This document shows, piece by piece, positions 13,938 through 26,552 of a stretch of DNA of 37,746 bases. Source of the stretch: Candidatus Limisoma faecipullorum (GTDB lineage Bacteria; Bacteroidota; Bacteroidia; Bacteroidales; Muribaculaceae); contig JADIMC010000036.1 of the NCBI GenBank assembly GCA_017694955.1, positions 1 to 37,746 of the forward strand. The letters are read 5' to 3'. A model generated the notes under the pieces. It was not told the DNA's origin and did not search any database. It saw nothing but the letters and a program-made list of their open reading frames with translations. The stretch's first letter is position 1. Each line of letters opens with the position of its first letter. The translations under genes were made by a program, and so were the position numbers.

Positions 13938-15059
13938 TTAATGATGATGATGCCCCTCAGGGACAGCTGACGAATTGGCAGCAATCTTGACAAGTACCGC
14001 ACCTTCTGTCACAACAGATTCACCGGCTTTCAGCCCGGAAAGAATCTCTATATTCTTCCCGTCACATCCTCCGATATCAATCCGGCGTTTCTCATAACAA
14101 CCTTTCTCATGCTCCACATAGGCATAGAAATATCCCATCTCCTCTGTAACGGACTGCACAGGCAGCACTATGGAATCCTCTTTTCCAGACCCAAGCAAAT
14201 AAATTTCAGCATATGTTCCTGGAACGATGCCGCCAGTATTATCAAAATCAAAGGCCACATCGATGTAACCACCGGACGTAGCGGCATTGTCGGAAGTTAT
14301 CTTCCGCCCATTCATCTCACTGAGATCATACACCTTCTCAGAATAAGGCAATTTGAAATTGGCAGTTTTAAGCGAAGCCAATTTCTCATAGTATTTTTTA
14401 GGAAGATATGCACGCAACGTCAACCTACGGTTCTCCGAAACAACAGCTATAGCAGTACCGGCATCCACATATGCCCCATTCTCAACAAGCAATTGAGTCA
14501 CAATGCCACTTAACGGACTAACCACCGTAGTTGAGCCTTTTCCACCCAAATATGCATTTTCAGCCAGTTCATACGCTTCTTTTGCTTCTTTATATTCACC
14601 GGCTGTAACTATCTTTTTCTCATACAAAGGCTGTATGCGCTCATATTCCGCTTTTGCCGATTCATATGCTATTTTTGCCGACTTATTAGGATCTCCTCCT
14701 AAAATACCGTCAGAGCTTATATTGCAAATCAAACCACCTTTACCCACGGCCGCTCCTTCTGTGACATTATTGTAAAATGCAACAATTCCAGAAGTTTTAG
14801 CCACGACCGATTTCATAGCGCCTTGAGCAGGGGCGACTTCTCCTGAAACAGCAATTACCTCACGGAATGTCACCGGCGTAATTTTTGCAGTTTTTATGCC
14901 CAATTCATCCACATGATGTTTATCTATTATAATTTCGTTCTCATGGTGCTCGCCAACCTCCTCTTTTTTATGTTCTTGTTCAGCTGATGAATTGCCATTG
15001 CCACAACTTAATAATAATGAAGGCAATAACAGAATTAGGAATTTGTTTCGTTTTTTCAT
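13938..15059 (-). CDS. Efflux RND periplasmic adaptor subunit (lipoprotein) with His-rich termini
   Basis: MKKRNKFLILLLPSLLLSCGNG lipobox, lipoyl/barrel-sandwich pattern (VVAKTSGIVAFYNNVTEGAAVGKGGLI ... VVSPLSGIVTQLLVENGAYVDAGTAI), C-terminus VPEGHHHH. Confidence 0.92.
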   Translation of the reverse strand: MKKRNKFLILLLPSLLLSCGNGNSSAEQEHKKEEVGEHHENEIIIDKHHVDELGIKTAKITPVTFREVIAVSGEVAPAQGAMKSVVAKTSGIVAFYNNVTEGAAVGKGGLICNISSDGILGGDPNKSAKIAYESAKAEYERIQPLYEKKIVTAGEYKEAKEAYELAENAYLGGKGSTTVVSPLSGIVTQLLVENGAYVDAGTAIAVVSENRRLTLRAYLPKKYYEKLASLKTANFKLPYSEKVYDLSEMNGRKITSDNAATSGGYIDVAFDFDNTGGIVPGTYAEIYLLGSGKEDSIVLPVQSVTEEMGYFYAYVEHEKGCYEKRRIDIGGCDGKNIEILSGLKAGESVVTEGAVLVKIAANSSAVPEGHHHH

Positions 15060-24418: not shown

Positions 24419-25276
24419 TTATTTAACCTCGATTACCAGAAAATCTGATTTCTCCCAAAACAGATTTGCATTAGTGATTTTCACAACTTTATAACCATTC
24501 TCATCCACTATTTCGTAAGAGTCTGCCGGCTGCTTACTTACCACCTTGGCAGAGGTGCTTCCAGTAGGGATTTCTGTCAGGCTACGCTTATCAGCTTTAA
24601 CAAATGCAGAGCGGTCAAAATCGCCTTCCATAATTTTTGTCCTTCCAAGAAACCTCTTTTCAAGAATTTTCTTTTCTTTCAGCACCTTATTCGTCTCCAC
24701 GATATAGTAGCACGTGTTGAGTTGATTTGTAAGCTCTTCCGTTTTTTGCTCAGCAATCTGCTTTTCCTTTGACACATTCGACACTTCAGTATTCAACGAG
24801 TCAACACGCACATTTAAATCTTCTATTTTAATATTCGCTTTTGCAAGCTCATCTTCCAAATCGGTAATTTTCTTATTTTGCTGGTCAATCAACTGCTTCT
24901 GCGAATCTATAGTCTTTTGCAAATTGGCAGTATAACCATTCTGCTTTTTCAACTTTTCTTCCAACTGCTCCAATTTCTGACGACGTACAGCCAGCTCTTG
25001 CTTGATAGCCTCGATATTATTTAAAATTTCGCGTTTCCTCGACGGCGACTCCGACTTAAATTCCTTAGATGTGACAATATTCTCTAATCCGTTAATTTCA
25101 ATCAGATTATTGCTTATTTCACCCATAAGGCTCATCAAACTGTCCTTCTCAGTCTCAAGAGTCTCTATCCTAATAGAATCCTGAGCAGCTTCATCAGCCG
25201 CATTATCAGTCTTGCCATCACTGCAAGATACCGCAAAAACAGCAATCAACCCGGCTACAAAAAATACTCTCTTCAT
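24419..25276 (-). CDS. Putative lipoprotein with long coiled coil
   Basis: MKRVFFVAGLIAVFAVSCSDGKTDN lipobox followed by heptad-rich KQELAVRRQKLEQLEEKLKKQN...QNKKITDLEDELAKANIKIEDLNVRVDSLNTEV. Confidence 0.85.
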   Translation of the reverse strand: MKRVFFVAGLIAVFAVSCSDGKTDNAADEAAQDSIRIETLETEKDSLMSLMGEISNNLIEINGLENIVTSKEFKSESPSRKREILNNIEAIKQELAVRRQKLEQLEEKLKKQNGYTANLQKTIDSQKQLIDQQNKKITDLEDELAKANIKIEDLNVRVDSLNTEVSNVSKEKQIAEQKTEELTNQLNTCYYIVETNKVLKEKKILEKRFLGRTKIMEGDFDRSAFVKADKRSLTEIPTGSTSAKVVSKQPADSYEIVDENGYKVVKITNANLFWEKSDFLVIEVK

Positions 25277-25402
25277 AATTTTACAACATCAATATTATAC
25301 ACGTTCATATGCATCAATTCATATGCCAAACATCATAATTTCACAACACGCTAACACACAGCTATTTCACTCTTGACCGCATCCCCACTACAAGCATCAC
25401 GG

Positions 25403-25443
25403 TGTGGAACAATTCCACAGCCATATGGAACAATTCCACAGCC
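25403..25443 (+). repeat. Tandem palindromic direct repeat (18-bp unit, 21-bp period)
   Basis: TGGAACAATTCCACAGCC occurs at 25405-25422 and 25426-25443. The first copy extends to the perfect 7+3+7 inverted repeat TGTGGAA-CAA-TTCCACA (25403-25419). Confidence 0.85.
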
Positions 25444-25465: not shown

Positions 25466-25495
25466 TTGATGAATAAAATTATATCATTACATTTG
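25466..25495 (+). promoter_or_regulatory. Bacteroidetes promoter TTG-N19-TACATTTG for galE
   Basis: TTG at 25466-25468, 19-nt spacer, TACATTTG at 25488-25495, ATG at 25518. Confidence 0.6.
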
Positions 25496-25517: not shown

Positions 25518-26552
25518 ATGAAAGGTAGAATTTTAGTAACGGGAGGAACCGGCTATATAGGCTCACACACTGCCGTTGAACTCCAAAACGCAGGGTATGA
25601 AGTTGTAATTATCGACAATCTATCGAACAGCAATATAGAAGTACTCGACGGTATAGAAAGAATCACAGGCAAACGTCCTGAATTCGTGAACGCAGATTGC
25701 ACGGAGATCAATGCATTAGAACGACTTTTCATAAAATACAGCGGTATAAAAGGAATCATCAACTTTGCAGCAAGCAAAGCCGTCGGAGAATCCGTACATA
25801 AACCACTTTTATACTACAGAAACAATATCAACACCCTCATCAACTTGCTTGAGCTGATGCCCAAATATGGCGTAAAAGGGATTGTATTCTCATCATCATG
25901 CACAGTATATGGAGAACCTGACAGCAACCCGGTGGATGAAAACGCACCAATAAAAAAAGCCACATCACCATACGGCAACACAAAACAAATAAGCGAGGAA
26001 ATCATTCAAGATTTTGTAGCATCAGGAGCAGGTATCAAGAGCATTATACTCCGTTATTTCAATCCAGTCGGAGCGCATCCTTCTGCTGAAATCGGCGAGC
26101 TACCCAATGGAGTACCTCAAAATCTGATTCCATATCTTACACAGACCGCAATCGGAATCAGAAAAGAATTAAGCGTATTTGGCAATGATTACAACACTCC
26201 TGATGGCTCATGCATACGCGATTTCATCAATGTGGTTGATCTTGCAAAAGCACACGTGACAGCCATTGAGCGCATGCTCGAAGACAAGAGCGAGGATAAT
26301 GTGGAAATCTTTAATCTCGGAACAGGAAATGGTGTTTCCGTCCTTGAACTAATCAACACATTCGAGCAAGCCACAGGCGTGAAAGTACCTCACAAGATTG
26401 TTGGTCGAAGAGAAGGTGATATAGAAAAAGTGTGGGCAAATCCAGAGAAAGCTAATAAAATATTAGGATGGAAAGCAGAAGTTCCATTAGCGGAAACAAT
26501 GAAATCGGCATGGAACTGGCAGTTACGGCTTCGCGAACGTGGCATAATGTAA
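25518..26552 (+). CDS. galE: UDP-glucose 4-epimerase
   Basis: ILVTGGTGYIGSHTAVELQNAGYEVVIIDNLSNS, FSSSCTVYGEPD, SPYGNTKQISEEI, LRYFNPVGAHPSAEIGE. Confidence 0.96.
   Translation: MKGRILVTGGTGYIGSHTAVELQNAGYEVVIIDNLSNSNIEVLDGIERITGKRPEFVNADCTEINALERLFIKYSGIKGIINFAASKAVGESVHKPLLYYRNNINTLINLLELMPKYGVKGIVFSSSCTVYGEPDSNPVDENAPIKKATSPYGNTKQISEEIIQDFVASGAGIKSIILRYFNPVGAHPSAEIGELPNGVPQNLIPYLTQTAIGIRKELSVFGNDYNTPDGSCIRDFINVVDLAKAHVTAIERMLEDKSEDNVEIFNLGTGNGVSVLELINTFEQATGVKVPHKIVGRREGDIEKVWANPEKANKILGWKAEVPLAETMKSAWNWQLRLRERGIM

Follow-up and report, generated by a model that had tools for sequence, protein, structure and literature searches.

The window examined here is the whole 37,746-nucleotide stretch of contig JADIMC010000036.1 from the assembly of Candidatus Limisoma faecipullorum (Muribaculaceae), denoted G000 below. 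Within the window, the intergenic region between a lipoprotein gene and the divergent galE gene, an arrangement correctly recognized in an earlier note made from the sequence alone, contains two palindromic boxes along with a candidate promoter for each gene (G003 is the closest relative):

24419..25276, minus strand: Cbp1-family coiled-coil lipoprotein of 285 aa (NCBIfam NF052320: 206.8 bits, cut-off 90), the likely target gene
25314..25328, minus strand: sigma-54 type -24/-12 promoter, TGGCATATGAATTGA (TGGCAT-N5-TTGA), 52 bp before the lipoprotein ATG; the extended element keeps 16 of 18 bases in G003, at the same distance
25403..25419, no strand assigned: box A, TGTGGAACAATTCCACA, a perfect 17-bp palindrome; proximal putative enhancer box, starting at -143 from the lipoprotein ATG; position kept in G003
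25424..25440, no strand assigned: box B, TATGGAACAATTCCACA, in which one base departs from the palindrome; distal putative enhancer box, spaced 21 bp from box A and starting at -164 from the lipoprotein ATG
25466..25495, plus strand: putative galE housekeeping promoter, TTG-N19-TACATTTG, read from the sequence; outside the box-promoter unit
25518..26552, plus strand: galE (TIGR01179), the divergent neighbour, an improbable target

The array includes an exact 18-bp repeat, TGGAACAATTCCACAGCC, with a period of 21 (25405-25422 and 25426-25443), and both boxes fit the palindrome TGTGGAA-N3-TTCCACA at an exact spacing of 21 bp. The perfect repeat and the perfect dyad of its first copy, which is the 17-mer of box A, were thus accurately described in the earlier note, and its reading of the boxes as operator-like palindromes in same-face register, suited to a dimeric regulator, is supported as probable binding by a dimer. 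A search of the window for TGGAACAATTCCACAGCC with up to three mismatches returned the two tandem copies only, against 0.01 matches in dinucleotide shuffles, and the core TGGAACAATTCCA has no further occurrence in the 2.27-Mb assembly. A different imperfect tandem repeat with the same 21-bp period (80% match), unrelated in sequence to the boxes, is found at 14641-14681.

The sigma-54 type promoter, which had been overlooked, follows the two boxes on the minus strand at distances of 91 and 112 bp. The window contains two matches to the pattern TGGCAY-N5-TTG, this promoter being one of them, with 0.52 expected by chance. Its -12 element has TTGA in place of TTGC, which counts against the sigma-54 assignment. 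With the transcription start expected near 25302, the box centres are located about 108 and about 129 bp upstream of it, that is, within the usual range for NtrC-type activators.

Another line of evidence comes from comparison with G003, a member of the same genus in which galE is 94% identical and the gene order at the locus is shared. The G003 boxes start at -164 (a perfect palindrome) and -143 (degenerate, TGTGGAGGCTGTACACA), and the promoter at -52, positions identical to those in G000. Box B retains 15 of 17 bases, box A 11 of 17 and the extended promoter element 16 of 18, so that 42 of the 52 bases in the three elements are kept, compared to 22 of 71 (31%) in the spacer between boxes and promoter and 13 of 36 after the promoter. 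As judged from the alignment of these two species, the box-box-promoter unit is a phylogenetic footprint oriented towards the lipoprotein gene. When named genomes were scanned, the only additions were the G003 locus and distant homologues, and the upstream regions of lipoprotein homologues from other genera contained no good box. G000 additionally encodes a second Cbp1-family paralogue, 49% identical to the first (C45:6097-6864, L131), which adjoins an rsmI-like gene, the neighbourhood where the sole copy resides in most members of the family; no box was detected there.

The candidate regulator is a sigma-54 dependent response regulator, represented by the 458-aa protein P0001 of the related genome G001, that combines a receiver domain, a sigma-54 interaction domain and a Fis-type HTH domain. 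The G000 orthologue is encoded at C63:37758-39080, and its separation from the boxes is a point against the proposed role; the earlier note had suggested that the cognate factor, having no adjacent gene, would act in trans, which is supported as probable. In G003, a single contig carries the regulator, the lipoprotein boxes at a distance of about 5.5 kb from it and, at about 6 kb, the box of an efflux operon discussed below. The gene next to the regulator encodes a hybrid histidine kinase (HisKA, HATPase and receiver domains) with a C-terminal stretch that, read by eye, is HPt-like. In G000, the kinase gene appears to be split over the end of contig C63 and the start of contig C57, and the two contigs are therefore probably chromosomal neighbours. 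The sigma-54 gene rpoN is present, with the domain PF04552 above the cut-off in G000 and six relatives (7 of 7 genomes tested). The regulator shares its domain architecture with ZraR/NtrC/AtoC-type regulators, and the paired palindromic boxes about 110-130 bp before the expected start, together with the -24/-12 promoter, are likewise common to those systems. Nevertheless, the G003 regulator scores well below the NCBIfam equivalog cut-offs for ZraR (365.8 of 760 bits), NtrC (362.6 of 558.6) and AtoC (357.3 of 714), the kinase differs in being a hybrid that itself includes a receiver domain, and the box TGTGGAA-N3-TTCCACA was not found in the literature searched.

Orthologues of the regulator, with at least 57% identity, are present in 7 of 397 genomes of the family, including G000 and G003. 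The box core followed after 80-110 bp by a sigma-54 promoter was identified in 8 of the 397 genomes, namely, 5 of the 7 with the regulator versus 3 of the 390 without it (Fisher p=1.4e-8, an optimistic value because related genomes are not independent). In the three regulator-less cases (L093, L099, L100), the box departs from the full 17-mer at 2-3 positions, and these matches were attributed to chance; the two remaining genomes with the regulator, G142 and G231, have boxes with 1-2 mismatches and a sigma-54 promoter beside the regulator gene. Perfect palindromes alone occur in 5 of 7 genomes with the regulator versus 7 of 340 without. Six of the latter seven are inside genes and the seventh (G005, L135) is intergenic but lacks a sigma-54 promoter; no perfect box was found in G002, a species of the same genus in which the regulator is absent.

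Across the order, homologues at the same threshold were detected in 76 of 393 genomes. In 17 of the 26 Bacteroidales loci with the closest orthologues, the 700 bp that follow the regulator gene contain a box (at most 2 mismatches), and in 13 of these a sigma-54 promoter lies 94-124 bp beyond the box, compared to 0.19% and 0%, respectively, in dinucleotide shuffles. The 14 arm bases of the box are conserved, and their distance to the sigma-54 promoters recurs. The box is missing downstream of the orthologues in G500, G652, G780, G682, G538, G087 and G599, and neither G000 nor G003 has a box adjoining the regulator gene; both points count against the proposed regulon. None of the three scorable paralogue controls (of four) carries the box; the recognition helix of the paralogue controls differs from that of the orthologues (GITRQTLYNKMKRYG against GIDRKTLYNKLKLY).

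Additional candidate sites point to a second likely target. Sites in G000 (C57:5049) and G003 (C15:21221) precede RND adaptor genes that are orthologous and 97% identical, and a perfect site in G001 (C11:20697) is similarly placed, giving three species in all. At these sites, the alignment reveals another box, degenerate in sequence, at a distance of 23 bp, followed after about 90 bp by a conserved TGGNAY-type element; this element lacks the usual -12 GC, a point against the sigma-54 reading. In the same G000 operon, a single ORF joins an AcrB-type RND permease with a TolC-type outer-membrane efflux domain (C57:6387-10877, L124); the G001 C11 ORF (L125:2871-7385) is similar in length, the two giving a range of 1496-1504 aa. 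A second perfect G001 site (C28:30629) directly follows the response-regulator gene and precedes a gene for a small secreted protein with TGGCACAGGTATTGT. Most of the 2-mismatch genome-wide matches with examined context fall inside genes.

Taken together, these observations make it very likely that the two boxes together form a bipartite enhancer, or upstream activating sequence, through which an NtrC/ZraR-type sigma-54 activator drives the lipoprotein gene. NtrC-type activators bind as same-face dimers that oligomerise on phosphorylation and contact the sigma-54 polymerase by DNA looping. By analogy, we infer that, in response to a signal, the hybrid kinase would phosphorylate the response regulator, dimers of which would occupy both boxes on one face of the DNA and then oligomerise; looping would bring the regulator to the sigma-54 RNA polymerase at 25314-25328 (minus strand), and ATP hydrolysis would open the promoter of the Cbp1-family lipoprotein gene. 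Probable further targets of this regulator are the RND efflux operon in G000 and, in most relatives, the small exported-protein gene beside the regulator's own gene.

The most obvious alternative, and the one adopted in the earlier note, is that the boxes are an operator of galE, at which an unknown dimeric regulator acts on the housekeeping promoter, either alone or besides a role at the lipoprotein gene. As stated there, 22 bp separate the end of the array from the downstream TTG at 25466-25468, which is spaced by 19 bp from TACATTTG (25488-25495) in what is a plausible Bacteroidales housekeeping promoter with this TTG as its -33 element, and the position would suit an activator or a repressor. 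However, whereas the exact spacing to the lipoprotein promoter is kept, the distance from the box to the galE ATG changes from 78 bp in G000 to 328 bp in G003, where the DNA upstream of galE is different and includes a tandem repeat array between the box and the gene. The array (L004:1187-1495) consists of units of about 90 bp with a promoter-like TTTG-N20-TATCTTT(C/G) motif that seemingly supply the galE promoter. The earlier note had also suggested a search upstream of galE orthologues; in the other galE loci fetched, the core (at most 2 mismatches) was absent, including within 1.5 kb of galE, in a search of the given strand of each whole locus, the core being nearly its own reverse complement. 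Elsewhere, boxes accompany sigma-54 promoters of other genes. Because both the spacing and the conservation of the boxes speak against it, we reject the galE assignment, which appears unlikely; as far as the comparison of genomes goes, the boxes very probably serve the lipoprotein gene via a sigma-54 activator.

Even if the lipoprotein promoter is the target, the boxes might be bound by a regulator other than the co-occurring one, given that G000 encodes further regulators and that binding by the candidate is predicted from co-occurrence. The tightness of this co-occurrence with one orthologue group, and the box beside that very gene in many families, make such a substitution quite improbable. 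Finally, palindromic and tandem elements could be hairpin terminators, RNA elements or a small mobile repeat, the last being the alternative raised in the earlier note. Two observations are of this kind: a 1-mismatch G001 match (L056) was set aside as a terminator-like hairpin, and in several Bacteroidales (L154-L156) the box follows the stop codon of the regulator gene inside a longer inverted repeat with variable outer arms, which perhaps doubles as the terminator of that gene. An interspersed repeat was nevertheless rejected on account of just two core copies in the genome, and an RNA element given that an Rfam search yielded zero matches. Furthermore, the site in the window is upstream of both divergent promoters, without an extended stem or a T-run, and the conservation of the box arms, with a recurring distance to sigma-54 promoters, also speaks against explanations of this type, which seem extremely improbable.

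A sigma-54 enhancer with a response-regulator activator is a well-known kind of system; a conserved two-component regulon of Bacteroidales with these boxes has apparently not been described so far, and the literature searched, largely outside subscription journals, contained no report of the box, the regulator or the regulon in Bacteroidales. The likely targets, a surface lipoprotein, an efflux operon and small exported proteins, fit the idea of sigma-54 control of the bacterial exterior (PMC3162934), a paper in whose text a search found no mention of Bacteroides-type bacteria. The target lipoprotein belongs by sequence to the Cbp1 family (NF052320), whose namesake is described in passages of PMC3949742 as a collagen adhesin of Bacteroides fragilis; sigma-54 regulation of Cbp1 is absent from those passages.

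We consider it more probable than otherwise, if by a limited measure, that a Bacteroidales-wide sigma-54 phosphorelay, comprising the hybrid kinase and the activator that recognizes TGTGGAA-N3-TTCCACA, controls envelope genes and that, within one Muribaculaceae genus, it has been rewired from the regulator-adjacent small exported protein to a Cbp1-type lipoprotein and an RND efflux operon. The literature searched has little on sigma-54 enhancers in gut Bacteroidales, and here a testable box is obtained together with the protein that probably binds it and the genes probably under its control. The attribution of the boxes to galE, natural as it was, is probably wrong and is corrected. The same boxes would mark the likely targets of this activator across many Bacteroidales.
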